DNA of 64,000 bases from Eggerthellaceae bacterium (GTDB lineage: Bacteria > Actinomycetota > Coriobacteriia > Coriobacteriales > Eggerthellaceae). Made by a program: the position numbers and the translations under genes. Positions 1,006-35,385 of this stretch are shown piece after piece. The number at the start of each line of letters is the position of its first letter. The stretch's first letter is position 1. The DNA lies in assembly GCA_910575165.1 (NCBI GenBank), contig CAJTDS010000001.1:186001-250000 (forward strand), in the 5' to 3' direction. The notes under the pieces were generated by a model, which was not told the origin of the DNA, made no database searches, and saw nothing but the letters and a program-made list of their open reading frames with translations.

Positions 1006-2631
1006 ATGCGCAAGGGTAACAAGATCATTCTGGTGGTCGGTGCATGCGCGCTTGCTGCGTCGCTGATGCTGGCGGCTGCCGGCTGCGCCCCCGGAAAGAC
1101 GGAGACGCCATCGACGAACACCGCTACTCCGGCGGCAGAGCAGAAGGCCGACGCGTCGTCGACCCAGGCAGCGGCCGGAACCACGGGGAAGAACGTCACC
1201 AACGACTCGGGCTACTTCCCGGACAACCTGATCAACACGGAGTTCCTGAACACGGGCAACCGCGGCTGCGACTCCTGCCACGACGACATCTACGCGTTGG
1301 TGGAGAACCTGAGCCCCGATTACCGTCATATCTGGACCTACCAGCCGGGCTATGGGCAGAAGGCGCGCATCGATGACTGCCTGACCTGCCATCGGTTGCA
1401 TGCGGCCCGCGTAGGGCCGTACCTGGGCGACCTGCTGCATGCGTACCACTACAACAACGAGATGTTCGTGAACGAGCAGAACGGCAACTGCTGGAGCTGC
1501 CATGCCATCAACCCCGAAAGCGAGCCCATCCTGGGCGGTTCGGCCGATGACGAGCATTTCGTGCTCTACGACGAGTTCAAGTACTCGCCGCAGCTGGGCG
1601 GCTACCCTGGCGGCAACGACGCCGGCGTTATCCGCTGGCTCGACTCGCGCGGTTGGGACGGCGGCCACATCACCGAGGTGAGCCTGGACGCGAACATGGG
1701 GCTTGACGTGCAGCTGACCCAGCCGGTGCTCGAGGAGTCCGACATGTTCATCGTGGACAACTGGAAGGCCTACGACGGGCCGGCTTCCACTACGGAAATC
1801 AACATGGACGAGTGGACGCTCACCATCACCGGCGCCAAGGAGACGAAGTCGTTTACCTACGAGGACCTGCTGGCCATGCCCCAGCAGAGCGTCATGGTGA
1901 CCCAGGAGTGCTACTCGGTTATGCCCGGTTCGGTGTTCGTCGGTAACTTCGAGGCCGAGGGCGTGCCCATCTCCTACCTGTTCGAGCTGTGCGGCGGCGT
2001 GCCCGACGACGTGAACGCAGCGCGCTTCACCGGCCACGACGGCTATCGCTGGAACGGCGTGCAGTGGATCGACCTGCTGCTTCGCCAGGATGCCATCATC
2101 GGGCTGAAGATGTGGGGCCACGACCTTACCGAAGACCAGGGCTATCCGGCCACGCTGGTGATCCCCGGCAAGCCCGGCGCCGGCTGGGTGAAGTGGCTGG
2201 AGGACATCGAGCTGTTCTACATCGACGACGACGAGCCCTACGATCCGGAGGTGCAGGGCTTCGATTACCGCGACGACCTGCGCATCTTCTCGAATCCGGT
2301 GACGGGCCATCCGGTGAGCTCCACGCTGTTCTGGATGAACGACGGCGACACCTTCTCCATGGCCGACGGCCCCATCCACTTCCAGGGTTACAGCTGGGTG
2401 TGGGCAAGCGAGGGCCGCTACCTCGACACCGTGAGCTTCAGCTTCGACTACGGTGTGACCTGGGAAACCGTGCAGGTGCCCGAGAACTTCGACCCGAACC
2501 AGTGGACGGTGTGGGACTTCGATTGGACGCCCCCGGCTCCCGGTACCTACATCTTCAAGGTGAAGGCCGCCGACAACACTGGCTACGAGCAGCATTGGGA
2601 AGACAGCACCATCATTCGCGTGACGGAATAG
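1006..2631 (+). CDS. Triheme cytochrome c fused to a sulfite-oxidase-fold molybdopterin domain, lipoprotein (module copy 1)
   Basis: 541 residues. The ATG at 1006 follows GAGGAGGG and starts a lipoprotein signal (lipobox AAAGC near residue 27), so the enzyme is tethered outside the cell. Three haem c motifs lie in the N-terminal third: CDSCH, CLTCH and CWSCH. A sulfite-oxidase-fold domain follows, with a Cys in TQECYS at the place of the molybdenum ligand, then DQGYPATLVIPG and VKWLEDIE, which match the usual GYP..R.vvPG...vKWl signature. The last about 120 residues match the Mo-co dimerisation domain (SFSFDYGVTWE, then W.W.......G.Y...VKA.D). It probably passes electrons between the haems and a Mo-pterin site; the substrate is unknown. 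No twin-arginine motif is visible. It is cotranscribed with the small secreted gene 18 bases downstream. Confidence 0.85.
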   Translation: MRKGNKIILVVGACALAASLMLAAAGCAPGKTETPSTNTATPAAEQKADASSTQAAAGTTGKNVTNDSGYFPDNLINTEFLNTGNRGCDSCHDDIYALVENLSPDYRHIWTYQPGYGQKARIDDCLTCHRLHAARVGPYLGDLLHAYHYNNEMFVNEQNGNCWSCHAINPESEPILGGSADDEHFVLYDEFKYSPQLGGYPGGNDAGVIRWLDSRGWDGGHITEVSLDANMGLDVQLTQPVLEESDMFIVDNWKAYDGPASTTEINMDEWTLTITGAKETKSFTYEDLLAMPQQSVMVTQECYSVMPGSVFVGNFEAEGVPISYLFELCGGVPDDVNAARFTGHDGYRWNGVQWIDLLLRQDAIIGLKMWGHDLTEDQGYPATLVIPGKPGAGWVKWLEDIELFYIDDDEPYDPEVQGFDYRDDLRIFSNPVTGHPVSSTLFWMNDGDTFSMADGPIHFQGYSWVWASEGRYLDTVSFSFDYGVTWETVQVPENFDPNQWTVWDFDWTPPAPGTYIFKVKAADNTGYEQHWEDSTIIRVTE

Positions 2632-2649: not shown

Positions 2650-3120
2650 ATGGCTAAGGCAACAACGATTCTCAGCGCGGTAACCGGTACGTCGCTTCTG
2701 CTTGCAGGCGTGGGCGCTGTGGCCCCCGCAATTGCGCCCGACCAGGCCCTTGCTGTTCAGGAGCAGGTTGTGGCCGGTGCGAGCCAGGACAACGCAGCGG
2801 TGAAGGCCGTGAGCGGCACGTTCTCCTACGACCAGAACGTCGCTACGTCCAACGCCACCATCAGCACGCTGTTCACGAAGGCTGCGGCAACCCTGTGCGC
2901 ATCGCTGCCGGAGTACGGCACGACCCAGGTGGGCATCTGCGTCAGCGTGACCGGCCCGAACGGGCTCTATAGCGGAACCGTCGCCGACATGGCGGCCGAG
3001 GACGGCGCGGCAAGCACCCTTATGGGCTGCGCGTGCGCTACGAACACCGCAGGCGGCGGCGCCATCATGAACGCCCAGGCTCAGGGCGTTGCGCTGGCGA
3101 CCATCGCGGCGCTGGTGTAG
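2650..3120 (+). CDS. Small secreted Cys-containing partner protein (module copy 1)
   Basis: 156 residues. ATG 2650 is chosen because AGGAGG lies 8 bases upstream; an in-frame GTG at 2641 is too close to that site. The N-terminus is a Sec-type signal peptide. The mature part has the pattern TLFTKAAATLC, a later GIC, and MGCACATNTAGGGAI near the C-terminus. All three landmarks are found again in the product at 33067-33564, also directly behind a triheme gene. The spaced cysteines suggest disulfides or bound metal/cofactor, but no CxxCH is present, so covalent haem c is unlikely. Strict pairing with the triheme gene suggests a subunit or electron-transfer partner. I recognise no named family. 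Confidence 0.8.
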   Translation: MAKATTILSAVTGTSLLLAGVGAVAPAIAPDQALAVQEQVVAGASQDNAAVKAVSGTFSYDQNVATSNATISTLFTKAAATLCASLPEYGTTQVGICVSVTGPNGLYSGTVADMAAEDGAASTLMGCACATNTAGGGAIMNAQAQGVALATIAALV

Positions 3121-3195
3121 CGGCAAAGCGTGTACAATGGCCGGGATACTGCGGACGAGCGAGCCAGCATGCTGGCGATAGGGCAGGAGGAAATC

Positions 3196-3756
3196 ATGAG
3201 GAAGAATCTTGGGTCGGCCGGAGAGCTGTTCCCCCAGTCGGTGTTTATCGTGGCGAGCTACGACGATGCCGGCGTGCCGAATGCTATGAACGTGGCGTGG
3301 GGCGGGGAGTGCACCCGCAACGAGATAGCCATCAACATCGGCGATCACAAGACCACCGAGAACATCCTTGCCCGCGGCGCGTTCACCGTGGCCCCGGCCG
3401 ACGCCGCCCACGTGATGGAGGCCGACTACTTCGGAATAGCGACCGGGCGCAAGGTGAACAAGGCCGAAGCGTCCGGCATGACCTTCGTGCGGTCGGCTTT
3501 CGTGGACGCGCCGGTCATCGAGGAGTTTCCGCTGACCATGGAGTGCATCGTGAAGGACGTGCAGGATTGGGGAGGCGAGAAGCGCTTCATCGGCGAGATC
3601 GTGAACACGAGCGTTGACGAGGAAATCCTCGACGACGAAGGCCGTGTCGACTTCGGCAAGATGAGGCCGATCGTCTACGACTCCACCCGCCGCATCTACC
3701 GCGTGGTGGGCGACGTGGTGGGCGGTGCCTGGGAGGCGGGCAAGCCGCTTCTGTAG
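3196..3756 (+). CDS. Flavin reductase-like FMN-binding protein (flavoredoxin type)
   Basis: 186 residues, ATG 3196 after GGCAGGAGG. The sequence follows the flavin reductase-like split-barrel fold: an N-terminal LFPQSVFIVASYDDAGVPNA, then NVAWGG, INIGDHKTTENI, and FTVAPADAAHVMEADYFG. This is the layout of flavoredoxin and related FMN proteins that reduce or carry flavin in anaerobes. It is cytoplasmic (no signal). It lies 75 bases after the small secreted gene and may share its transcript, which would place a cytoplasmic flavin redox step next to an extracellular haem system. That link is inference; such genes are also common alone. Confidence 0.85.
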   Translation: MRKNLGSAGELFPQSVFIVASYDDAGVPNAMNVAWGGECTRNEIAINIGDHKTTENILARGAFTVAPADAAHVMEADYFGIATGRKVNKAEASGMTFVRSAFVDAPVIEEFPLTMECIVKDVQDWGGEKRFIGEIVNTSVDEEILDDEGRVDFGKMRPIVYDSTRRIYRVVGDVVGGAWEAGKPLL

Positions 3757-16454: not shown

Positions 16455-19400
16455 ATGAGGAAGTCTACTGCTCGTATTAAGGTAGTGAACAGCCTGCTGG
16501 CGTGCACGCTGGTACTGGGGCTGATGCCGTCGCTGGGATCGGTTGCCTACGGCGATCCAGCTGAAAATCTCATGGGGGGGGGGTCGCCTGAAAGCGGTTT
16601 GCTAGGGGCGGTTTCTGACCTCATGATACCCGAAGCGCAGGATGAGCCCGTCGGCGACCCTGCGTCGGAGGATGACGCTGCCCCCGATAACGCCGGCAAC
16701 CCCGAAGGCTCCGTTTCGGCCGCCGACCCCAACTCCGAAGGCGCCGAAGCGAACGCTCCCACCCCTGTTTCCGAAGGTGACGATTCCCCCGACGCCGCCT
16801 CCGACCCCAACGCTGACGACGCCGACGACTCGGCGATCGAGCTCAAATCCTTGGCCACCTTCGACGCTGGCGACGGCTTCACCGACTGCGGCGGCCTGTC
16901 CATCAAGAGCGCCGACGGCTCCACGGACGGCTTCGGCTACGAAGAGGTCACTTGGACGCGCATCGGCCGCGGCTACACCGAGAACGGGTATAGCAGCAGC
17001 GGCCGCAATCCCGAAATCCCCCGTACCACTCCGGTTACCGCTACCCTCAACATGCTGGTTATCAAGAAGAGCGGCACGTACACCATCAAGAACACCGCGG
17101 ACGCGGCCACGGGCACCGGCATCCGCGTCATGCCCGGCTTGAACGTGAACCTGGTGTTCGCCGGCGTAAACATCAACGGCGGCTACCCCATGGAAATCGT
17201 CACCAACAGCCACGTGTCCTCTACCTACGACTTCCTGACCGAAGAGATGGAGGGCTCCGACGTGGCGAATCCCACGCGCGTGCACATCACCCTGGCCGAC
17301 GGTACCACGAACAACCTGACCTCGCTCTACAACAGCATCGCTCACAGCTCGGGCAGCAACCAGAACTACAACGAGTACCAGTTCCCCGGCCTGCGCTGCG
17401 GCGAGGGGTCGTACCTGACCATCGACGACGCGGTGCTCAACGTGGACACGGCGGGCAACCACATCACGCCCGTTGACGGCGCCATCCCCGACGGCACCAC
17501 CTACGTGGACCGCACCGGCACCGTGCGCACCGCCGACTCCACCAAGAAGAAGGAAAGCGAGCGCTTCAACAGCCTGTCGAACCTGGAGTCCTCGAACCCC
17601 GGCGTGCTGAACGTGTACGGCGGCGTGCGCTCGGCTGCCATCGGCGGCGGTCCGCTGGAGAATTCCGGCGTCATGACCTTCGACGGCGGCACCATCAACA
17701 CCTATGCCGCGGCCTTCAACGGTAACGGCGCCGGCTGCGGCATCGGCGGCGGCCATGCGGGCGGCAGCACCCAGACCACCATCAACGGCGGCGTCATCTA
17801 CGCACGGTCGTCCTTCCACGGCGCGGCTATCGGCGGCGGATGCACCTACGTCGGCGGCATGTCGTCCTACCTCACCTTCCCCCTGGCCGACGCGCTGCTC
17901 TCCCGCAACGCCAACTCCACCATCGCCGGCGACATCACCATCAACGGCGGCTTCACCACGGCCCAGGGCGACGAGCACTCCAATGCCTTCGGTCAGGGTT
18001 GCGGTGGCTCCAATACCGGCAAGACCATCCTCATCACCGGCGGCACCCTGTATCCTCTTTGGGGTGGTGGCGGCGGCTTTCTGGAAATCGGTGGCGATGG
18101 CGGCAAGGTCATCATCACCGGCGGCTCCATCAACTGCACGCGCTTCCAGGGCAACGACAACGACGGCAAGGCCTACGGCGGCAAGACCGATGAGAACGGC
18201 AACTACCTGTTCGACAGCACCAACAAGGTGGCCATGATCAACGTGAAGGTGGGCCCGAAGATTGAGTCCATGGTCAAGCAGCTCATGCGCGACAAGCTGG
18301 GCGACGCCTACGACGAGAGCACCATTGCCTCCAATCCGGAGTACCAGAAGCTGCTGGCCGAGGGCATGAACGCCAAGATTGAGTCTTGGGAGTTCAAGAT
18401 TAACGACATGCCCATGGAGCCCTACTACGGCGCGCCGGCCCGTCTGCAGAACGGCATTCTGTACCTGTGGCTGCCCGAGGGCACCTACGGCCGCGACAAG
18501 GTGGACGCGAACTTCAGCTACTACGTGGGCGACCAGCTGCTCACCTCTTACACCAACGTGCCGGCGAACCCCGACTCCGCCGACGGTACCATCAAGGAAT
18601 GGGAGGTCTTCGAGCTGGACGAGGCCTTCATCGAGGCCAACTGGTCCAAGTACTACGATGGCGTCTCCCTTGACTCCGCGGGTATCTTAGGCTCGGGCGG
18701 TATCTCGGTGAACAACCCTCCCAGTGGCAAGCTGACCGATGCGAACAAGCTGACCTTCGGCGCCCAGAAAATGGACGAGCTGGGCAACGGCACGGCGGCT
18801 TCCACCAGCTCTTCGAAGATGCCGGCCGATTCGGGCATGTACAACGTAGAGGTCATGTCCTCTCAGTACGCCTCCGATACCAACTTCGCCGTGACCTACT
18901 GGGGGCACCGCGCCTACGGCACCGCCACGGTGTCTCCCATCTCGTCGCGCTCCGTAACCGAGGTTCCCGAAGAGCTGGGTCGCGTGGTGGGCGACGATAC
19001 CTACACCAGCCCCGTGTGGCTGCAGGACGAGGCTCCCGAAGGGACCGACTTCAACACGGCGCTGCAGAACCACATGTTCGTTCCCGTGGACGTGACCAGC
19101 TACAAGGTGCCCTTCGGAGACACCTACAAGGACGGCACCGACACGGCGAAGGCCTCGTGCGTGGTTCCCCAAGGCCGCATCACGCTGTACCTGGACGGCG
19201 TGCAGATTCCCGCGCGCCTGGGCGGCGTGATTGACTATCGCCTGAGCTATGATGACACCGGCAAGCCGGTTATGGGCGATAACGGTTCGCAAGCTACTAC
19301 CAACAGCGACGTGGTCACCTATGTCGACGACGACGGTCGCATGCACGCGGTGGCCTACTTCGACCTGAACGAGAAGAAGATCAACGAGCTGTTCCGCTCG

Positions 19401-22400
19401 GCGGACTACCGTGCGAACAACACCTTCGACAAGAAGGTTGCCGAGGCTGGCCCCGACGACCCCGCGCCGCTGCACGAGGTGCATGCGGTGTACACGTCGG
19501 CCGTGCGCGACAACCTGATCGACCGCGACGATGTCGACCAGGCTGTGGAAGGCTACAGCCTGGAAGCGCCGCAGGATGAGGAGCCGGCGGCGGAGGAGCA
19601 GGCCGCAGACGACGCGGCCGATGCGACGGTGGGCGCCCTGGCGGCAGGCGGCGAGCTTGATCCGGCGGCCTTCGGAGCCCTGGTGGCGCAGAAGGTGTTG
19701 CTGTTCGCCGAGGGCGCCGACGACGACGCCGGCAGCTTGATCGCGAAGGAGGCCACCTCGGCCGGCATCGACGGCGTGGCGCCCCGGTGGTCCGACTCCG
19801 GCTACGAGAACTACTACGAGTCCACCACGCCTGTGACCTTCGTGGACATCGCCATGGTGGACCCCACGGGCACCCTGTACAACGAGATGGGCCAGCCCCA
19901 GGAGAACCCCGATGGCACCAATTCCTACGACCGCGTGTCCTACGACCCGGCGCTGCCGGTGGATGCGTCCAACATGCCCTCCACCGACGACAAGTACAAG
20001 GCCAGCTACGTGGTGGAAAAGCCCGTCGAGGGCGGCACGGAGAAGGAAGTGGTCTGTGAGGAGTACAAGTTCTACCACGTGACTGACTTCCGCGATTCGG
20101 AGACCTCTCGGGCGTCTACTCCTGACTGGTTCCCCGTTTACCTGACTACGAACTCCCTGGGCGACGTGACCTTCACAAGCTCCGACCCTGCTGCCGTCAC
20201 CTTCGACCCCGCCACGGTGACCAACCGCGAGTACGAGGACGGCACGGTGGAGTACGGCATTGGCGCGCGGGCTCATGTGAACTCGGCAGGTAAGGTGACG
20301 CTCAAGGCTCGGGTGGCTCCCAACGGTGCCTACAACGGGCTGGAGCGCAGCTTCACGCTGTACATCTACCCCGACCTGTCGAAGAAGCCGGTGCTGGACA
20401 TGAAGGAGACGGCTTACGACACCAGCCGCTCCGACGGCACCATCCGCCCCGGCGACGTGCTGGCCTACACTGCCACGCTCACGAACACCACGCCTGACTC
20501 GGCGCTGTTCCGCGGCAAGATGCAGATGCAACTGCCCGACACCCTGGAAGTGGGCCGCGTATTCTATACCGATCCCAACGGAGCGGAGCGCGAGCTTGAC
20601 CCCAGCGAGTACACGGTGACCACCGATCCCGCCACCGGTGTGTCCACCATCGAGTTCACGTCCACCGAGGTGCTCTACGGCTTGGGCCAGATGAGCCTGA
20701 CGGTGGAGGCTGCGGTGAAGGCCGATGTTGCCTGGCGCGCCCTGACCGACCCTGATTCGGTGAGCTTCCATTCCACCACCACGGGCAGCGGCGTGTACGG
20801 TATCGGCGACAGCGACTTCGACTGGGATACCCGTTACGACTACGTGGACGGCACGCCCACCGACGAGGCCAGCGCCGAATGCGACCCCACGCTTCCACCC
20901 GAGCGTGAGCCCGAACAGCCCAAGCCGCCCTATACTCCCGACGAGCTTGAGGAGATTCTCGGCGGTGGCCTGGTGGACCCCGAGCCCGGCACGCCCGACG
21001 ACCCGGAGCCCGGCCCCGGCGTACTGGTGGGCGGCACTGACCCGGTGCCCGGTTCGCCCTTCGACCAGGCGGTGGAGGACAGCGACTATACCGACGACCC
21101 CAAGCCGAACCCCATTGTGCCGGGCGACCGTATCATCAAGTTCGGCGAGAAGGACGATCCCGAGACCCCCGATGACATCGCCGAGGAGCTGAAGCGCATC
21201 ATCGACAAGGTGGTGGAGGAGAACAAGGGCAAGCCCGAGGACGAGCGCCAGACCACGGTTGACATCCCGGTGACTATCCTGACGCCCAACCCCGACGACC
21301 CGGACGGCGAGCCGGTGGAGAAGCACGTGATCATCACGGTGCCCGTGCCCGATACCCCCGATACGCCCGACGTCCCCAGCAACCCCGACGACCCCGACAA
21401 CCCGGACGACCCCGACAATCCGGACGATCCGAGCAACCCGGACGACCCGAAGAACCCCCACGATCCCGATCGCGACGACCACGGTTTGACGGTGCTGCCG
21501 AACGACCCGGTGGTTCCCGACCCCGGCAACCCGGACGACCCCGACGACCCGGACGACCCCGACGACCCGGACACCCCGGCGAAAAGCGACATCGTGGTGA
21601 CCAAGGAGCTTCGCAACGTTACGCCCGGGTTCGCTGACCGCGGCAACACCTACGCGCTGGTGGGCGATACGCTGGAGTACACCATCGTGGCCAAGAACCT
21701 GAAGGAGGGCACGGCGTGGCTTGCGGCCCAGGTGTACGATCCGCTGCCCCAGGGCGTGGCCTACGTGTCCGGTTCGGCGGTCATCACCGATCAGTTCGGC
21801 AAGCAGCATGCGGTGAAGGCCGAAGACGAGCTTCACGGCGAAGGCGGCAAGCTGGGCTTCAACCTGGGCGACATCTACGGCGGCAAGCAGGCTAGCGTCA
21901 CGTTCAAGGTGACGGTCACGGCCGACGCGGTGGCCGACGGCGCCCCGGTGCCGTCCAACGTGGCCTACGGCCAGGGCACGAAGCCTTCCGGCACCGTCGT
22001 GTACCCGGAGGGAACCGACCCCGACACCTTCGATCCCACCACCGACCTGCCTATCGAGATTCAGCTTCCCGACCCCACGCCGGGCACGTTCGACCCGGGC
22101 AGCGAGGATGAGAAGGACAAGTGGGAGGAAGAGGATCCGGACAACCCCGGTACCACCAAGCCCAAGGACCTGCTGCCCACCGACCCGGCCAAGCCTGACG
22201 GCACGAGCCACACCGACCCCGACCATGGGAAGTTCTCCACGGTCAAGGACGCCACGGTGGTGACCGAGCACGAGGGTGCGCCCGAGGGCACTGTGTACGT
22301 GGGCGACGTGGTGGCCTATACCATCACGTTCGCGAATCACGACGAGCCGTGGACTGCGTGGTACAACGTGACCCTGTACGACAAGCTGCCCAAGGGCCTG

Positions 22401-23027
22401 GCGCCGGTGGCGGGCTCCTTCGCGCTGAAGGCCCCTGGCGCCGATGAGGCCCAGCCGCTTGACGACTCGGTCTACAACGCGCAAAGCGGGGACATCTCGG
22501 TGTATGTGGGGCGCGTGTTGGGCGGTCAGGAAGCGGTGCTCACGTTCCAGTGCACCGTCACTGACGAGGCTGTGGGCTCCGACATCGGCAACACAGCGGC
22601 TGTGTACGGCACCGACCCGTCGAAGACCGAGCCCTCAGTGCTGGATGGTACGCCGGGTGCCACTCCCGGGGTGGGTGACCGCTACGCCCCCGAAGAGGGC
22701 TGGGACGGATTCGTGGAGGATAACGGCTCTGATTCGGCGAACTTCTCGTCGGTGAGCTATCCCGACAGCGAAGGCCCTGTGGACGTGGTCGACCCGAATG
22801 GCGACCCGAACCGCAAGCCCACGCCGCTGCCTTCCGGCGACGGCAACGGTAACGGCGACGGTAACGGCGGCCCGGGCGGCTCGTCGGCGGCCACGGGTGA
22901 CAGCCTGCCCGTGACGGCGCTTGCGGGCCTGGCGTTCGCGGCCTTCGTGGTGCTGGCGACCGCCCTGTGGCGCCGCCGGGTAGACGCCCTCAGGGAGCAG
23001 GCGCCGCACGGCAAGCACGTGCGGTAA
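16455..23027 (+). CDS. Giant cell-surface adhesin-like protein with a phase-variable G10 tract
   Basis: 2190 residues from ATG 16455 (ATAGGAG upstream; an upstream in-frame ATG at 16362 lacks a ribosome site). Residues 1-32 are a signal peptide ending SVAYG-D. An acidic Pro/Ala-rich region (33-135) follows and holds three Gly encoded by the G10 tract. Residues about 135-650 are Gly/Asn-rich with GGG(x) turns (AAIGGGPLENSG, CGIGGGHAGG), as in beta-helix surface proteins. DUF11-like repeats start near 1312, 1712 and 1927 (e.g. VLAYTATLTNTT, LEYTIVAKNL, VAYTITFANHD). Asp-Pro-rich linkers (DNPDDPDNPDD type) lie at about 1635-1675 and 1689-1709. The C-terminus is AATGDSLPVT, a 20-residue membrane segment and RRR, like a sortase signal but without LPxTG. 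Role in adhesion is inferred. Confidence 0.9.
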   Translation: MRKSTARIKVVNSLLACTLVLGLMPSLGSVAYGDPAENLMGGGSPESGLLGAVSDLMIPEAQDEPVGDPASEDDAAPDNAGNPEGSVSAADPNSEGAEANAPTPVSEGDDSPDAASDPNADDADDSAIELKSLATFDAGDGFTDCGGLSIKSADGSTDGFGYEEVTWTRIGRGYTENGYSSSGRNPEIPRTTPVTATLNMLVIKKSGTYTIKNTADAATGTGIRVMPGLNVNLVFAGVNINGGYPMEIVTNSHVSSTYDFLTEEMEGSDVANPTRVHITLADGTTNNLTSLYNSIAHSSGSNQNYNEYQFPGLRCGEGSYLTIDDAVLNVDTAGNHITPVDGAIPDGTTYVDRTGTVRTADSTKKKESERFNSLSNLESSNPGVLNVYGGVRSAAIGGGPLENSGVMTFDGGTINTYAAAFNGNGAGCGIGGGHAGGSTQTTINGGVIYARSSFHGAAIGGGCTYVGGMSSYLTFPLADALLSRNANSTIAGDITINGGFTTAQGDEHSNAFGQGCGGSNTGKTILITGGTLYPLWGGGGGFLEIGGDGGKVIITGGSINCTRFQGNDNDGKAYGGKTDENGNYLFDSTNKVAMINVKVGPKIESMVKQLMRDKLGDAYDESTIASNPEYQKLLAEGMNAKIESWEFKINDMPMEPYYGAPARLQNGILYLWLPEGTYGRDKVDANFSYYVGDQLLTSYTNVPANPDSADGTIKEWEVFELDEAFIEANWSKYYDGVSLDSAGILGSGGISVNNPPSGKLTDANKLTFGAQKMDELGNGTAASTSSSKMPADSGMYNVEVMSSQYASDTNFAVTYWGHRAYGTATVSPISSRSVTEVPEELGRVVGDDTYTSPVWLQDEAPEGTDFNTALQNHMFVPVDVTSYKVPFGDTYKDGTDTAKASCVVPQGRITLYLDGVQIPARLGGVIDYRLSYDDTGKPVMGDNGSQATTNSDVVTYVDDDGRMHAVAYFDLNEKKINELFRSADYRANNTFDKKVAEAGPDDPAPLHEVHAVYTSAVRDNLIDRDDVDQAVEGYSLEAPQDEEPAAEEQAADDAADATVGALAAGGELDPAAFGALVAQKVLLFAEGADDDAGSLIAKEATSAGIDGVAPRWSDSGYENYYESTTPVTFVDIAMVDPTGTLYNEMGQPQENPDGTNSYDRVSYDPALPVDASNMPSTDDKYKASYVVEKPVEGGTEKEVVCEEYKFYHVTDFRDSETSRASTPDWFPVYLTTNSLGDVTFTSSDPAAVTFDPATVTNREYEDGTVEYGIGARAHVNSAGKVTLKARVAPNGAYNGLERSFTLYIYPDLSKKPVLDMKETAYDTSRSDGTIRPGDVLAYTATLTNTTPDSALFRGKMQMQLPDTLEVGRVFYTDPNGAERELDPSEYTVTTDPATGVSTIEFTSTEVLYGLGQMSLTVEAAVKADVAWRALTDPDSVSFHSTTTGSGVYGIGDSDFDWDTRYDYVDGTPTDEASAECDPTLPPEREPEQPKPPYTPDELEEILGGGLVDPEPGTPDDPEPGPGVLVGGTDPVPGSPFDQAVEDSDYTDDPKPNPIVPGDRIIKFGEKDDPETPDDIAEELKRIIDKVVEENKGKPEDERQTTVDIPVTILTPNPDDPDGEPVEKHVIITVPVPDTPDTPDVPSNPDDPDNPDDPDNPDDPSNPDDPKNPHDPDRDDHGLTVLPNDPVVPDPGNPDDPDDPDDPDDPDTPAKSDIVVTKELRNVTPGFADRGNTYALVGDTLEYTIVAKNLKEGTAWLAAQVYDPLPQGVAYVSGSAVITDQFGKQHAVKAEDELHGEGGKLGFNLGDIYGGKQASVTFKVTVTADAVADGAPVPSNVAYGQGTKPSGTVVYPEGTDPDTFDPTTDLPIEIQLPDPTPGTFDPGSEDEKDKWEEEDPDNPGTTKPKDLLPTDPAKPDGTSHTDPDHGKFSTVKDATVVTEHEGAPEGTVYVGDVVAYTITFANHDEPWTAWYNVTLYDKLPKGLAPVAGSFALKAPGADEAQPLDDSVYNAQSGDISVYVGRVLGGQEAVLTFQCTVTDEAVGSDIGNTAAVYGTDPSKTEPSVLDGTPGATPGVGDRYAPEEGWDGFVEDNGSDSANFSSVSYPDSEGPVDVVDPNGDPNRKPTPLPSGDGNGNGDGNGGPGGSSAATGDSLPVTALAGLAFAAFVVLATALWRRRVDALREQAPHGKHVR
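16574..16583 (+). repeat. G10 homopolymer inside the adhesin reading frame
   Basis: Ten consecutive G follow CAT at codons 40-43, just after the signal peptide. With ten G the frame is open; gain or loss of one base would shift it and stop the protein early. Confidence 0.85.
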
Positions 23028-28819: not shown

Positions 28820-30415
28820 TCACTCTCCGCTGCGCACCAGACGGTCCAGCTCGTCGGCGGAGTGAACTCCCAGCTTGCTGTACACGCCCTGCACGTGGGT
28901 GCGCACGGTAGCGATGGACACGGTGCGAATCTCGCTAATCTGCTTCGGCCGCTTGCCCTCGGCCAGCAGTAGCAGCGTTTCGCGTTCGCGGGCAGTCAGC
29001 CCGTGCTCGTCGGCTAGCTCGTTGCAGCGCCGTTCGCGATTGCGGGCGTACAGCGCCTTGGGAGTCTCCTTCGGCAGGATGCCCCAGGCCGTCTTCGCGT
29101 ACTTCTCGCCGTTGGTGTTGAAGGTGACCACGGTGAGCAGTAGGAAGATGGCGATGCCCATCAGCCCGAAGGTCCAGTCGTTCAGCGGCACCGTATCGTG
29201 CACGACGGCCCCCACTATGTTGCCGCCCAAAAACCCGGCGTTGTAAACCAGCATGGCGTAGGAGAACACCTGGGTATAGCCGACGCCCGTGGTCCGGCAC
29301 ACCACGAAGCAGCCGATGATTAGCAGCGCTACGAAGAAGAACTGGGCGCTTTCAACGAAGGAAAGGGACGACACGTACTCGTCGGCGCTGGTGTAGGGCA
29401 CGAGCAGCGCCGCAAGCACCACGAACGGAAAAGAGATGCGGTAGATGCGGTTCCATACCAGCACGGTAGAGGGCTCGGACCGGGGCACCGTGATCACGAA
29501 CAGCGCCATGGCCACCGCGGCGCCTATGAGGTTGGGCAGCACGCGCGGCAGTTGGAAGACGGGCAGCCCCAGGGGAATGACGTGCAGAAAGCCGAACACT
29601 AGCCCGCAGGAGGCCAGGATGATGGCGAAGTAGGACAGCGGTCGCGAGTCGGCGCTTGTGGCGAAGGGCCGCTCTGACTCCTGTTCCTGGTCGGCGGCTA
29701 GGTATCCCTTCCGCGTGCGACCGTTCCGCTCACCGGAGGCGTTTGGCTTGTCAGGACGGATGGCCGACAGAAAGCAGATGCCGCCGACGGCCATGATGAG
29801 GGCCTGGACGCCCAGGCTGGCCAGCAGCGGCGTGCGCACCGCCAGCGCGCTCAGCAGCCCATAGGTGATAGCAACCGTCAGCACGACGGCGCAGGCCATG
29901 AGCGTGCGGAAGCGGGCGAAGCTGCAATAGCGCGCGAATCCCATGCAGGCGGTCAGGAACACGGCCACGCTCGCCCCCGATGCGAACTGCGTTGCTACGG
30001 TGCCCAGGCACGGTCCTTGGGGCGAGAGCGTCAGGCAGAAGGCGGCGGTCAGCAGCTCTTGCACGGCGAAGAAGCCGACCCAGAACCAGCGGTTGCGCCG
30101 GAGGGACGAGAACGAGGCGGCGCAACGGGTGGACACGGCGAAGCCGGCCGTGATGCCGGTGATGTTGGCCAGGCACGAAACCGCGCGGGCATTCACCGCG
30201 AACCCCAGCAGCGTGCCTTCGGCGAGCAGGCGGTTTCCCGTCTCGTGCAGGAACAGCGACGACGAGACCACGGAAACCAGCGCCACCAGCAGCAGAATCG
30301 AGCGTCGGTTCCCCAGCGCCGACGCTGTCGCGGGCCTTCCCCCGGCAGACGCTGCATCCGCGCTTGGCTCGCGGACCGGTGCGTTGCTTGGGGCGTCGAA
30401 ACCTGAACGCGCCAT
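28820..30415 (-). CDS. Membrane-spanning LuxR-family transcriptional regulator
   Basis: 531 residues from ATG 30415 after GGAGAGGGG. Residues about 40-440 contain around twelve hydrophobic helices in two sets, separated by a polar loop near 225-255, like a transporter-derived sensor. The last 65 residues are a LuxR-type helix-turn-helix: LTARERETLLLLAEGKRPKQ, then SIATVRTHVQGVYSKLGVHS. Membrane LuxR regulators of this build are numerous in Eggerthella, where members of the family have been linked to induction of catechol dehydroxylase. It lies next to redox module 2 with the same orientation as the lipoprotein gene, so control of that module by a small-molecule signal is a good hypothesis. 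Confidence 0.9.
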   Translation of the reverse strand: MARSGFDAPSNAPVREPSADAASAGGRPATASALGNRRSILLLVALVSVVSSSLFLHETGNRLLAEGTLLGFAVNARAVSCLANITGITAGFAVSTRCAASFSSLRRNRWFWVGFFAVQELLTAAFCLTLSPQGPCLGTVATQFASGASVAVFLTACMGFARYCSFARFRTLMACAVVLTVAITYGLLSALAVRTPLLASLGVQALIMAVGGICFLSAIRPDKPNASGERNGRTRKGYLAADQEQESERPFATSADSRPLSYFAIILASCGLVFGFLHVIPLGLPVFQLPRVLPNLIGAAVAMALFVITVPRSEPSTVLVWNRIYRISFPFVVLAALLVPYTSADEYVSSLSFVESAQFFFVALLIIGCFVVCRTTGVGYTQVFSYAMLVYNAGFLGGNIVGAVVHDTVPLNDWTFGLMGIAIFLLLTVVTFNTNGEKYAKTAWGILPKETPKALYARNRERRCNELADEHGLTARERETLLLLAEGKRPKQISEIRTVSIATVRTHVQGVYSKLGVHSADELDRLVRSGE

Positions 30416-30497: not shown

Positions 30498-31217
30498 TTA
30501 TAAGGCCGAAGCCGGCTCGCCAGCGCAAGCGCTCACCGAGAAGGTGGCTGCCGGGGCCAAAACGGCATTCGGGTCTAGGTGGATTTCCTTCAGATCGGCT
30601 TCCTCGTTGAACGAGAACGTCCAGGTGAGAGCATTTGATTCGGCGCCGTCGGTGGGGTTGTAGGTGGCGAGGGAAGCGCGGCACGTCAGGTACTCGCCGT
30701 CTCCGTCAAGCGACGCCGCCAGCTGCTCGTAGGCTTCGTCGCAGTCCAGAGCGATGGCGGCAGGATCAGCCATGGCGTCGAAGTCGTCCTGGGTGATGGC
30801 CGCGCCCGGATTGTCGCGCACGGAGGCCTTGTCGTTCTCAACCGTTACAGTGTAGGCGCTGGCCCGTCGCCGCGAGTAGAACAGAAACGTCCAGCTTGGG
30901 GTGAAATGCGCCTGGGAGAAGGTGGTGGAGGTCACGGCCAGCAGCTTGGCGTCGTCGGCGCGCTCGGTTACGGCGCTGCGGGCCGTTTCGTAGTCCTTGG
31001 CGAAGGCGGCGTCGAACGTTATGCGCGAGGCGCTTGCGGCGCCGGCCGACTGTGCTGCGCATCCCGTCAGGCCTGCGCTGCCAGCGACGCACCAGGCGGC
31101 TACCAGGGCGACTGACAGCGCGAGAGCGAGGATGCGGGCGGCGCAGCGGTGCGGAGTGCCTGGGACGCGGCGTGCGGCGCTTGCGACAGGATGCGAGGCG
31201 TTGGGGGCGGTTTCCAT
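30498..31217 (-). CDS. Exported lipoprotein of redox module copy 2
   Basis: 239 residues, ATG 31217 after AAGGAGCC. The long N-region (about 28 residues) is followed by a hydrophobic core and lipobox AGLTGC near residue 53. The mature part is paralogous to the lipoprotein at 1-633: DYETARSAVTERADDAKLLA lines up with SYERALEAMAERVDDPVLLA, and SWTFLFYS with TWTYLFGS. It is divergent from the triheme gene at 31435. Function unknown; position in both module copies argues for a linked role. Confidence 0.82.
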   Translation of the reverse strand: METAPNASHPVASAARRVPGTPHRCAARILALALSVALVAAWCVAGSAGLTGCAAQSAGAASASRITFDAAFAKDYETARSAVTERADDAKLLAVTSTTFSQAHFTPSWTFLFYSRRRASAYTVTVENDKASVRDNPGAAITQDDFDAMADPAAIALDCDEAYEQLAASLDGDGEYLTCRASLATYNPTDGAESNALTWTFSFNEEADLKEIHLDPNAVLAPAATFSVSACAGEPASAL

Positions 31218-31273
31218 AGGGGGCTCCTTGGCGTAACGGGGCTTCCTTGTTGCTGTCGATGATATTTCGAAAG

Positions 31274-31349
31274 ATTGATGAGCGCTTCAGCAACTATTGA
31301 TGAATTTTCGTCGAGTGTCGATGAGAGGTTCATCAGCCCTTGCCGATGA
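31274..31349. promoter_or_regulatory. Phased direct repeats in the divergent region of module 2
   Basis: ATTGATGA at 31274 and 31296, GTCGATGA at 31317 and a weaker CCGATGA at 31343 are spaced 22, 21 and 26 bases, about two helical turns. They lie between the divergent lipoprotein and triheme genes and could bind the LuxR-type regulator encoded next door. Confidence 0.4.
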
Positions 31350-31434
31350 CCTGCCCTGGTGTCGGCGAGTACCGTTGGGACGAGGGTCCGCTCGGGGAAG
31401 GGCCGAGCGGGAAGGACCAATGATAGGAGGAACT

Positions 31435-33054
31435 ATGAAAGCTCTGAAAGCGAAGGGTGGGCAGCGCAAGCTGGCCATGCTCGCTCTGCCGCTGGCGGTC
31501 GCCCTGATCGCTGGCTCGCTGTACGCGTGCTCGCCTTCTGCGTCTGCCGCGTCGAGCGAGAAGAAGACGCCGGTAGCGGAGGCTTCCCAGGAAGCCGACA
31601 AGGCCGATGCTGCGACGACGACCGTGAGCGGCTACCCGGACTTCCTGGAGAACAGCGCGGGGATGTTCGAGGATACGTACTTCAACTCCCAGCTGCTCAA
31701 CACCGGCAACCGCGGTTGCAATGCCTGCCATACCGACCTGTTCGCGGTTATGGACATGAACGATGACGGCTTCGAGCACATCCTAGTGTCCGCCGGCTTC
31801 GGCAAAAACGGCACCTACAAGGACTGCGAGCCGTGCCATCGCACCCACGAGGCGCTGACCGGCATGTACATGGGCGACATCATCCATGCGAGCCACTACA
31901 GCAACGAGCTGTTCGTGGAAAGCAACGGCAACTGCTGGAGCTGCCATGCGGTGAACGCCGACCCCGAGACCGGCGAGTTCGAGCTGGTCATGTTCGACGA
32001 CATCGCCGACACGGCTGCCCTGGGCGGCTATCCCACCGCTGGCACCGACTCGCTCGTGCGCGACTGGATTGCCTCGCGCGGCTTCAAGAACGGCTTCGTC
32101 ACCAGCATGGGCGTGGAGTCCCAGCCCAAGGTAGAGGTGACCTTCGACCAGGAGCCTGCGGCTGCCGAAGACGTGTTCGTGGTCAATAACTGGGGCACCG
32201 AAGTGACCGGCAAGGGCGAGGGAGACAACGCCTTCAAGATCGAGGGCGAAGGCGATACCTTCGACTTCAACGCTATCTGCGACGAGAACAGCACTGTCAC
32301 CATCACTGGCGTGAACGAGCCTAAGACCTTCACCAAGGCCGAACTTCAGGCCATGCCCCAGACCGAGTTCACCATGAACCTTGCCTGCGGCACCAACGGC
32401 AACGGCGGTGCGCTGGTGGCCAACGTCCCCATGACCGGCGTACCCATGGAGTACATCATCGAGCAGTGCGGCGGCCTGGTAGAGGGCAACAACGCCGTCA
32501 CCGTGCAGGCTTACGACGGCTGGATGTCGTTCCCCGTGCCGCTGGTCGCCAGCACCTACACCGAGGATGCCTTCCTGGTGACGAAGCACTACGGCCAGGA
32601 TCTGACCGACGATCAGGGTGGCCCCATCATGGTGGCCTCCAAGGGCCATGCGGGCGTGGTGCAGGTCAAGCACATCAAGACCATCAACTTCGTGCAGTCC
32701 GACATGTACGTTGACGGTGCCGGCCAGCTGGACGTAAACGGCATGTGGTTCCAGAACAACGGCACTGCCTACAAGTTGGGCGACACCGTGGAAGTGTCCG
32801 CCGCAGCCTACTCCTTCACCCGCGAGTGCGGCGACATCCAGACCGTGAGCTTCAGCTTCGACATGGGCGTCACCTGGCAGGACTTCACCATGGCCTCCGA
32901 GGTTGCCGGCTACGATCCCGACCAGTGGTCCCGCGCCACGCTGAAGTGGACCCCCTCTGCGGCGGGCACCTACACCATCATGATGCAGGCGAAGACCGAC
33001 CAGGGCATTCAGATGGACGATCCCGTGTCGTTGATCGTGGTCGTGGAAGAATAG
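31435..33054 (+). CDS. Triheme cytochrome c fused to a sulfite-oxidase-fold domain, lipoprotein (module copy 2)
   Basis: 539 residues, ATG 31435 after TAGGAGG. Lipobox GSLYAC near residue 26. Three haem c motifs, CNACH, CEPCH and CWSCH, at the same spacing as in the copy at 1006. The sulfite-oxidase-fold domain keeps the likely Mo ligand in MNLACGTNGNGGAL and the C-terminal dimerisation domain (SFSFDMGVTWQDF). The pterin-contact signature is altered: DQGGPIMVASKGHAGVVQVK instead of DQGYP..vvPG...vKW. Substrate, or even molybdopterin use, may therefore differ from copy 1. No twin-arginine signal. Followed after 12 bases by the small partner gene. Confidence 0.85.
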   Translation: MKALKAKGGQRKLAMLALPLAVALIAGSLYACSPSASAASSEKKTPVAEASQEADKADAATTTVSGYPDFLENSAGMFEDTYFNSQLLNTGNRGCNACHTDLFAVMDMNDDGFEHILVSAGFGKNGTYKDCEPCHRTHEALTGMYMGDIIHASHYSNELFVESNGNCWSCHAVNADPETGEFELVMFDDIADTAALGGYPTAGTDSLVRDWIASRGFKNGFVTSMGVESQPKVEVTFDQEPAAAEDVFVVNNWGTEVTGKGEGDNAFKIEGEGDTFDFNAICDENSTVTITGVNEPKTFTKAELQAMPQTEFTMNLACGTNGNGGALVANVPMTGVPMEYIIEQCGGLVEGNNAVTVQAYDGWMSFPVPLVASTYTEDAFLVTKHYGQDLTDDQGGPIMVASKGHAGVVQVKHIKTINFVQSDMYVDGAGQLDVNGMWFQNNGTAYKLGDTVEVSAAAYSFTRECGDIQTVSFSFDMGVTWQDFTMASEVAGYDPDQWSRATLKWTPSAAGTYTIMMQAKTDQGIQMDDPVSLIVVVEE

Positions 33055-33066
33055 GAGAGATGCAAG

Positions 33067-33564
33067 ATGAGCAAGTGGAACGGTAAGACCGTAGGCGCTT
33101 TCGCCGGGGCTGCTATGCTGGCCGTGTCCGGTGCCGCTACCGTGGTGCCCGCTGTGGCCCAGCCCGCCGACGCCGCTGGCGTTGTGGCAACCGACCAGGC
33201 CGCTGCGGCGAAGGCCGGCGCCACCAGCGCCACCGTGCAGGGCTCCTTCACCTTCGCCCAGGATGTGGTGACGTCCAACGATACCATCAGCACCGTGTTC
33301 GCCAAGGCCGCGGCCACGCTGTGCCAGTGCACCACCGCCGAGGCGGCTACGTGCTGCGCCTCCGCCATCGCTGTGGGCGGCGACGTGGCGAACAGCTATT
33401 CGGCCACGGTGGCCGAGATGGCCGGCAGCGACGCATCCACCCGCGTAATCATGGGTTGCAGCTGCGCCTCGAACGTGGCCGGTGGCGGCGCCGTCGCCAA
33501 TGCCGAGGCCGAGGGCGTAACCCTGGAGAGCGTGCTCGCCCAAGCCCAGGCCGTCGCGAAGTAG
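33067..33564 (+). CDS. Small secreted Cys-rich partner protein (module copy 2)
   Basis: 165 residues, ATG 33067 with AGGAGAGATGCAAG before it. Sec signal peptide ending near VAQPADA. Homologous to the protein at 2650: GSFTFAQDVVTSNDTISTVF matches GTFSYDQNVATSNATISTLF, and MGCSCASNVAGGGAV matches MGCACATNTAGGGAI. Extra cysteines are present here (CQCT, TCCAS). Cys positions shared by both are ATLC, one in the middle and the GCxC pair. Likely a dedicated partner of the triheme protein; function unknown. Confidence 0.8.
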   Translation: MSKWNGKTVGAFAGAAMLAVSGAATVVPAVAQPADAAGVVATDQAAAAKAGATSATVQGSFTFAQDVVTSNDTISTVFAKAAATLCQCTTAEAATCCASAIAVGGDVANSYSATVAEMAGSDASTRVIMGCSCASNVAGGGAVANAEAEGVTLESVLAQAQAVAK

Positions 33565-33841: not shown

Positions 33842-33918
33842 GCGCCGTTACCTCAGCTGGATAGAGGGACTGACTACGAATCAGTACGTCGGGGGTTCGA
33901 ATCCCTCACGGCGCACCA
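33842..33918 (+). tRNA. tRNA-Arg(ACG)
   Basis: 77 bases with encoded CCA. Acceptor stem GCGCCGT / ACGGCGC, D-arm with CAGCTGGATAGAG, anticodon stem CTGACTACGAATCAG with anticodon ACG, T-arm GGGGGTTCGAATCCC. It is the left boundary and probable attachment site of the prophage. Confidence 0.95.
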
Positions 33919-35385
33919 CTTGCGTATCAGGCGAACACCTTGTTCATCAGGGAGTTCGCCTTTTATTATGCCCTGAACGGTACCTAAGTCGAACTCCTTC
34001 GCGCCGTCGCCGAGGTCGAAGACGACCATAATCGACTCGCCGTCCGTGTAGATTTTGTCGACGAACGCGGCAACGGCGTCGGCGGCGCGGGACGGATCGC
34101 GGTCTATCCGCTCCACTATCTCCCGCACCATGGCGCGCACCTTGGCCGGATCGACCATCTCGGTGCGGTCGAAGCGCGCCCTGGCGAGCTCCATCTCGAT
34201 GTCGTCCATGCGCGCCTGCAGGGGCGGCAGGGCGTCGGTGAGGGCGGGCAGGTCGCCGCACCTCGCGATGGCGGACACGACGTTCTCGGCCTGCTTGCGC
34301 ACCTCGGCGAGCTCGGCCTCCAGCTCCCGGGTCCTGTCTGGCTTCGCGGCGGTGGAGCGCATGACCTCCTCGACCATCCTGTCCACCGAGCCGTCCTCCC
34401 GCAGCAGGGACACGAGCTCGGAGACGACGGCCCCCTCTATCGCCTCCTTGGGCACGGACAGCCCGCAGCCGCCGTTGTCGCGGTAGTAGCAGTACTTGCG
34501 CCCCGCCTTCCCGGTGCCGGAGTACCCGCCCATCGGCCGTCCGTCGAGGGCGCAGAACAGCCTGCCCGTGAGCGAGTAGTCCTCGGTGCTGCGCCGCGCG
34601 GCGCTGCGGTGGTCCCTGCGCGCGTCCATCTCCTCCTGCACCATGTCGAACTCCCTTCTCCCGATTATCGCCGGCATGCCGCCCGGTATCTCCACACCGG
34701 CGTAGCGGTAGACCCCAGCGTACGCGTCGTTGCGCAGCATCTTGCTGATCCCCTGCGGGCGCCATCTCCCTCCGCGCACGGTCGGAACGCCGTCGCGTTC
34801 GAGGCGCTCGGCTATGCGCGTCGTGCTCTCGCCTCCCAGGTAGGCCGCGAACACGGACCTGACGACCTCGGCCTCGCGCGCCTCCTCGGCGAACCTCCCG
34901 TCCTCCCCGGTGCGGTAGCCGTAGATGCGCACGCCCGCGGCAAGCCCTAGCTCGGCGCTCTTCCGTATGCCGCCCTTGACGAGCACGCTGAGGTTGCGGC
35001 TGTAGTACTCGGCGAACAGCTCCGCCACGCCCTCCCCGAGCATGCCGTCGGGGGTGTCCGGCATCTCGCCCTCGCGCACCGACACGATGCGCACGCCTGC
35101 CGCGCGCAGCTCCCTCTTGTACCTGCGCGACACCTCCACGTTGCGGGCGAACCGGTCGGTCTTGTAGATGACCAGTACGTCGAACAGCCCCGCGCTCCCG
35201 TCCGCTATGCAGCGCCGGAACGCGGGGCGATTGTCGTTGGTGCCGGTCTTGGCGTAATCGGCGTACACCTCGCCCGTTTCCCATCCCTCGCGCTCTATGA
35301 GCGCCGCGCACTGCTCGACCTGGATCTCGATGGACTCGTCGCGCTGCGCGTCCGAGGAGTACCTGGCGTATATGGCGGCGCGCAT
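33874..35385 (-). CDS. int: Large serine integrase
   Basis: 503 residues from ATG 35385. Catalytic domain 1-150: AIYARYSSDAQRDESIEIQV with the nucleophile Ser near 10, and YKTDRFARN. Recombinase domain about 155-260 (GYRTGEDGRF..., MLRNDAYAGVY), zinc ribbon (FCALDGRPMGGYS... CGLS; one typical Cys pair is not clear) and a coiled coil near 345-410. It cuts and joins attP and attB. The last 13 or so codons read the tRNA-Arg gene backwards, and the stop TAG is in its anticodon arm. It starts 4 bases after the repressor stop, so both are probably cotranscribed. Confidence 0.92.
   Translation of the reverse strand: MRAAIYARYSSDAQRDESIEIQVEQCAALIEREGWETGEVYADYAKTGTNDNRPAFRRCIADGSAGLFDVLVIYKTDRFARNVEVSRRYKRELRAAGVRIVSVREGEMPDTPDGMLGEGVAELFAEYYSRNLSVLVKGGIRKSAELGLAAGVRIYGYRTGEDGRFAEEAREAEVVRSVFAAYLGGESTTRIAERLERDGVPTVRGGRWRPQGISKMLRNDAYAGVYRYAGVEIPGGMPAIIGRREFDMVQEEMDARRDHRSAARRSTEDYSLTGRLFCALDGRPMGGYSGTGKAGRKYCYYRDNGGCGLSVPKEAIEGAVVSELVSLLREDGSVDRMVEEVMRSTAAKPDRTRELEAELAEVRKQAENVVSAIARCGDLPALTDALPPLQARMDDIEMELARARFDRTEMVDPAKVRAMVREIVERIDRDPSRAADAVAAFVDKIYTDGESIMVVFDLGDGAKEFDLGTVQGIIKGELPDEQGVRLIRKWCAVRDSNPRRTDS
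33930..33965 (+). terminator. Terminator of tRNA-Arg, inside the integrase gene on the other strand
   Basis: GGCGAAC (33930-33936) pairs with GTTCGCC (33954-33960), followed by TTTTATT. It lies 12 bases after the tRNA and is also codons of the integrase C-terminus. Confidence 0.75.

Follow-up and report, generated by a model that had tools for sequence, protein, structure and literature searches.

Results

Genes of the two loci

The window, that is, the whole 64,000-nt stretch of Eggerthellaceae DNA analysed, carries two loci with the same three gene types in the same divergent layout (Table 1). The triheme/sulfite-oxidase (SuOx) protein was designated alpha and the small Cys protein beta; a third gene, located outside the window, was designated gamma. 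An earlier note on this DNA had described the three proteins as paralogous pairs, and pairwise comparison confirmed it: the two copies are 32% identical for alpha (562 columns, E 7e-92), 48% for beta (100 aa, E 4e-27), and 44% for the lipoprotein (55 aa, E 3e-10).

Table 1. Coordinates of the predicted features in the window
Feature	Position	Strand
Optional divergent lipoprotein, copy 1; gene cut by the window edge, full length 231 aa	1..633	-
Alpha, copy 1 (P0002)	1006..2631	+
Beta, copy 1 (P0003); alternative start GTG at 2641	about 2650..3120	+
LuxR-type regulator adjoining copy 2, ~10 hydrophobic segments	28820..30415	-
Optional divergent lipoprotein, copy 2 (P0004)	30498..31217	-
Alpha, copy 2 (P0005): Sec-type lipoprotein with triheme c, SuOx, and Ig (dimerisation-type) domains	31435..33054	+
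Triheme region of alpha, copy 2 (residues ~93-171; CXXCH from Cys95, Cys131, and Cys167; distal His 115, 151, and 154)	31711..31947	+
SuOx (Oxidored_molyb) domain of alpha, copy 2 (residues ~239-423; Mo-ligand-position Cys318)	32149..32703	+
Beta, copy 2 (P0006): exported half-SuOx protein, 165 aa	33067..33564	+
Stretch of beta, copy 2, homologous to the SuOx N-terminal half (residues ~57-163; Cys86, CxC pair Cys131/Cys133)	33235..33555	+

Several other genes lie near the two loci. The gene after copy 1 (3130-3756) is flavin-reductase-like (PF01613), and one of similar appearance adjoins gamma in Adlercreutzia caecimuris (L151:4675-5043). Just outside the window, upstream of copy 1, a small cytochrome with three CXXCH motifs and then a FAD_binding_2 gene (L022:1617-3804) make up a further reductase locus, one of a familiar type. 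An ORF of 2134 aa (16623-23027) is located between the two copies. Directly downstream of copy 2 there is a serine recombinase-like gene (33874-35385, minus strand), with many short phage-like ORFs from there to the end of the window, and the region 33874-64000 is a probable prophage inserted beside copy 2.

Alpha: haems and an altered sulfite-oxidase site

Alpha has a triheme domain, followed by SuOx and Ig domains. The two copies matched Pfam Oxidored_molyb (PF00174) with E 2e-23 and 2e-19, and alpha matched a PDB profile with E 1e-31. The AF2 model (pLDDT 79.8) matched SorT/SorA in Foldseek with E 1e-20. The haem c motifs and the sulfite-oxidase fold recognised in the earlier note were thus verified. 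Alphas of this genome have three CXXCH motifs and three further invariant His residues (H115, H151, and H154), and the Cys at the lipobox position is invariant among them. One of them (L030:8306-9886) has two CXXCH motifs only, its first haem motif, CLGSSCH, being a CX4CH variant.

In an alignment of 40 alphas, the Cys at the Mo-ligand position is kept in all, and so is the pocket Lys, as K or R. Of the other residues known from SorA, the substrate Arg R55 is kept in 0/40 and R109 in none, the loop bearing R109 being a gap in 37/40; the Arg of GxPxR is kept in three alphas and Y236 in two. We take these four residues to belong to the active site and pterin pocket, as in SuOx enzymes. Because the canonical Arg and Tyr residues are lost, ordinary sulfite-oxidase chemistry, i.e., canonical sulfite oxidation by alpha, appears unlikely. 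Known exported SuOx enzymes are loaded with Moco in the cytoplasm and exported by Tat. The signals of alpha are of the lipoprotein type; a simple pattern for the full twin-Arg motif matched in 0/11 alphas of this genome, and RR, present in some, is not conserved.

Beta: the N-terminal half of a SuOx domain

Sequence comparison, first visual and then profile-based, aligned the mature part of beta with the N-terminal half of a SuOx domain, to which it is homologous; the protein ends just before the C-terminal half. Short beta matched Pfam Oxidored_molyb with E 0.0036, at profile positions 13/14-84/85 of 169 only, and this N-terminal half with E 1.1e-5 in profile-profile comparison. In phmmer, beta matched the L030 alpha frame with E 2.8e-9 (small database), and the beta HMM matched SuOx domains of alphas in other genomes with E values reaching 4e-12. 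Longer betas exist as well, the length types being judged partly from open-frame length: those of ~270 aa match the whole Oxidored_molyb profile (E 1e-18), and those of ~370 aa consist of SuOx and Ig domains. These relatives with the whole domain settle the SuOx ancestry of beta. The AF2 model of beta was poor (pLDDT 63.8) and its PDB matches were weak (Z ≤ 3.3), 11 of the 12 listed being SuOx-family chains aligned to the N-terminal half; a fold search with this model was set aside as too weak to be the sole support for SuOx homology.

Residues G59, F61, Q65, C86, C131, C133, and G150 are invariant over all beta length types in the alignment. C133 falls on the Mo-ligand column, where beta reads CASNVAGGG and alpha CGTNGNGG. 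A hydrophobic leader was present in 40/40 betas examined.

Pairing, regulators, and distribution

The genome carrying the window (G000, 2.72 Mb, 41 contigs) encodes 11 alphas and 11 betas, and every beta adjoins an alpha. Among 119 Eggerthellaceae genomes, alpha was found in 30, beta in 30, and both in 29, with one genome on each side having a weak or partial match only. In the same genomes, 122 of 126 betas adjoin an alpha, 121 of them downstream of it on the same strand with a median gap of 75 nt; the sole surveyed pair with beta upstream of alpha is L026:7628-9769, in the genome of the window. One further beta-type domain is naturally fused to a triheme domain. The unit is thus an alpha-beta pair and not a trio, and the pairing is near-obligatory. 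Among 298 genomes of the class, alpha was detected in Eggerthellaceae alone, but distant relatives occur in MAGs labelled Clostridia/Lachnospiraceae. Viral relatives were not found with the beta query.

The lipoprotein family comprises seven genes in 5/119 genomes, two of them in the genome of the window, and all seven are located beside an alpha. With seven genes for about 124 alphas, the lipoprotein is an optional extra and was rejected as a core component.

At 9 of the 11 pairs of this genome, a neighbouring gene encodes a LuxR-HTH protein, in most cases with about 10-12 hydrophobic segments. GerE was identified in nine of ten scanned neighbours; one pair is accompanied by LysR, and one is cut by a contig end. 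In E. lenta, genes for substrate-specific enzymes are switched on by transmembrane LuxR regulators (PMC9734109). A set of surface oxidoreductases, each with its own substrate, would agree with the large number of divergent paralogues and with the regulator of this type that accompanies each.

Phylogeny of alpha and beta

In the beta tree, computed from 112 columns, short betas form one clade (support 96/94). The alphas of short betas are scattered: partner type changes five times on the alpha tree, and a grouping of these alphas as a single clade was rejected (AU test, p 5e-64). P0005 is placed with alphas of Slackia equolifaciens and of an Enterorhabdus MAG, whose betas have 270 aa, and its partner P0006 belongs to the short-beta clade. 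Two further alphas of this genome, L030 and L023:6201, are likewise placed among alphas with long betas. Short betas are one clade but their alphas are unrelated, and partners have therefore been swapped; the trees suggest that in a gamma-bearing genome several alpha lineages had their beta either replaced by the short type or converted to it. Mirror-tree analysis of alpha and beta gave r 0.51 over all pairs and no agreement within this genome (r -0.07). A recent duplication of the module was ruled out by the trees, the nearest relatives of P0005 being alphas of other species.

Gamma: a separate gene for the other half

Gamma is a gene of ~190 aa coding for the C-terminal half of SuOx with an Ig domain, found beside short betas in other genomes. 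It covers columns 331-530 of the alpha profile, and beta covers columns 235-334. A single gamma accompanies the 11 short betas of the window's genome; it is located at L103:7943-8518 (minus strand) on contig 2, away from all 11 pairs. Adlercreutzia hattorii likewise has one gamma, there with five short betas. With gamma called at E below 1e-50 in 138 family genomes, it was present in 15/18 genomes with short beta and in 0/120 others (Fisher 2e-17, uncorrected for kinship). Genera g1, g32, g41, and g48 each include both states, and the association holds within them. The short-beta genomes without gamma are G059 and G346, both with the beta near a contig end, and G082; the last is near-complete and so far a genuine counter-example. 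Eleven of the 18 gamma genes follow a short beta at a distance of no more than 900 bp, in the operon order alpha-beta-gamma, and gamma is unlinked to any beta in the genome of the window and in G067, G005, and G036. Selection on gamma is purifying (dN about 0.05-0.18, dS about 0.3-1.4 and so higher, or saturated, dN/dS about 0.1-0.2).

No hydrophobic leader was found at the 11 gamma and two Ig-only starts examined. With no signal peptide on gamma, there is no support for the two halves being reassembled outside the cell. Gamma is likelier to act in the cytoplasm, for instance by holding or maturing beta precursors, than to be a lasting part of the exported enzyme, and on the basis of its predicted N-terminus the favoured reading of gamma is a cytoplasmic maturation factor shared by the short betas.

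In G070 (L150:2637-5408), a separate Ig-only ORF in another frame accompanies a 270-aa beta, and 270-aa betas may thus be paired with a separate Ig-only ORF in a way similar to the gamma case. A stand-alone Ig-domain ORF of 93 aa without a leader (L104:6542-6823) is present also in the genome of the window, and despite it no 270-aa beta was found there.

Discussion

Each locus could encode a two-subunit surface oxidoreductase, an explanation to which we give an even chance on the basis of these sequences. As a lipoprotein, alpha would combine three bis-His c-haems and a SuOx plus Ig scaffold in one chain. Beta would be an exported second subunit of SuOx descent, cut to the N-terminal half and bringing C86 and a CxC pair at the former Mo-ligand position. 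The two are expected to form a complex, in which electrons would pass from the membrane through the three haems to a substrate site built from both SuOx-derived parts, with the cysteines of beta in place of the Mo site. Each pair would serve its own substrate and be induced through its own transmembrane LuxR regulator, and gamma would act for all the short betas that a cell makes, as their common partner or as a maturation factor. A more specific form, doubtful at present, is a hub-and-spoke split protein, in which one gamma completes or matures 11 betas, each tied to its own alpha, and a Cys-based centre has replaced the Mo site. If so, the bacterium adds oxidoreductases by duplicating alpha-beta pairs only.

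The extracellular electron-transfer system proposed in the earlier note thus stands in part. The dedicated small partner and the tie of an accessory lipoprotein to the triheme gene were borne out; betas and lipoproteins adjoin alphas, and so these families do not occur mostly without the triheme gene, the pattern named there as contrary to the proposal. Different substrates for the copies are compatible with the divergent paralogues and separate regulators. The three-gene module is reduced to a pair, the supposed duplication to two of 11 pairs spread over the family tree, and the system is not self-contained, as the other half of the beta fold is encoded by a separate, unlinked gene. The SuOx origin of beta had been missed.

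The clear SuOx homology and fold of alpha, and the ligand-position Cys and pocket Lys or Arg kept in every alpha aligned, would also suit an ordinary exported Moco enzyme similar to sulfite dehydrogenase, in which the SuOx domain binds Mo-molybdopterin, the haems carry electrons, and beta is accessory. The loss of Arg55, of the Arg109 loop in most alphas, and of nearly every GxPxR Arg and Tyr236 makes such an enzyme rather improbable, as may lipoprotein-type signals that seem to lack a conserved twin-Arg, compared with the Tat exit of known exported SuOx enzymes. Beta might instead be secreted and act as a free redox carrier of SuOx descent, based on thiols or a metal, independent of gamma and shuttling electrons to distant acceptors, which is near the view of the earlier note. 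Its exported-type N-terminus, the three Cys residues invariant across all length types, and the occurrence of beta without gamma in G082 agree with that; but the immediate operon pairing with alpha and the natural fusion of triheme and beta-type domains argue for a fixed complex, many beta relatives keep the whole domain, and gamma tracks short beta, so that a free carrier is similarly improbable.

Gamma, too, could be read otherwise, as a detached fragment with a separate cytoplasmic function, linked to short beta by common descent only and not its partner. The missing signal peptide, the location apart from any beta in four genomes including this one, and the absence from G082 are in favour of such a fragment, which we consider possible though unlikely, since against it stand the distribution over 138 genomes with its contrasts inside four genera, the 11 gamma genes closely downstream of a short beta, and the exact complementarity of the two halves. 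The probability that readthrough of a stop codon joins beta and gamma into one protein is negligible. The piece after the stop continues in the same frame in several genomes, but the stop varies between them (TAG or TGA), gamma starts at an ATG of its own, which in examples including L084 and L075 is preceded by a purine-rich stretch resembling a ribosome-binding site, and the Ig piece of G070 is in a different frame. For the genome of the window, readthrough is ruled out by the location of gamma on another contig.

If the two-subunit oxidoreductase is real, the pairs represent a large undescribed class of surface oxidoreductases in Eggerthellaceae, beside the known flavin and molybdenum reductases. 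Some genomes, probably that of E. lenta among them, carry several to roughly a dozen such pairs, and each pair would probably be tied to a different gut compound. They would also be a natural example of a domain split over two genes, with halves seemingly in different compartments and one half-domain common to many partners, which could be tested by genetics in relatives of E. lenta. A description of the alpha-beta(-gamma) set was not found in the literature searched, with subscription papers mostly outside its scope, in agreement with the earlier note, whose author knew of none.

Comparison with known systems

The SuOx-fold enzymes SorA, SorT, SoxC, and chicken and plant sulfite oxidases (PF00174 with PF03404) share with alpha the fold, the order of SuOx and Ig domains, the Cys at the Mo-ligand position, and the pocket Lys, and beta is homologous to their N-terminal half. 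Alpha differs from them by a triheme N-terminal domain on the same chain and by the lost active-site Arg and Tyr residues, and the loci described here have in addition a second SuOx-derived subunit with CxC, split between two genes. In SorAB and SoxCD, which consist of SuOx and cytochrome c subunits, the SuOx fold is likewise paired with c-type haem for electron transfer; here, in contrast, the haems are fused to the SuOx chain, and the separate partner is not a cytochrome but a haem-free protein of SuOx descent. The inducible enzymes Dadh, Hcdh, Cadh, and Cgr2 of Eggerthella and Gordonibacter (PMC9734109), from the same bacterial family, resemble the present loci in having a multi-transmembrane LuxR regulator beside each of many paralogous loci, but they are DMSO-reductase-type Moco or flavin enzymes, whereas the loci here have the SuOx fold. 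The fold is therefore known, and its split, its sharing, and its pairing appear to be new.
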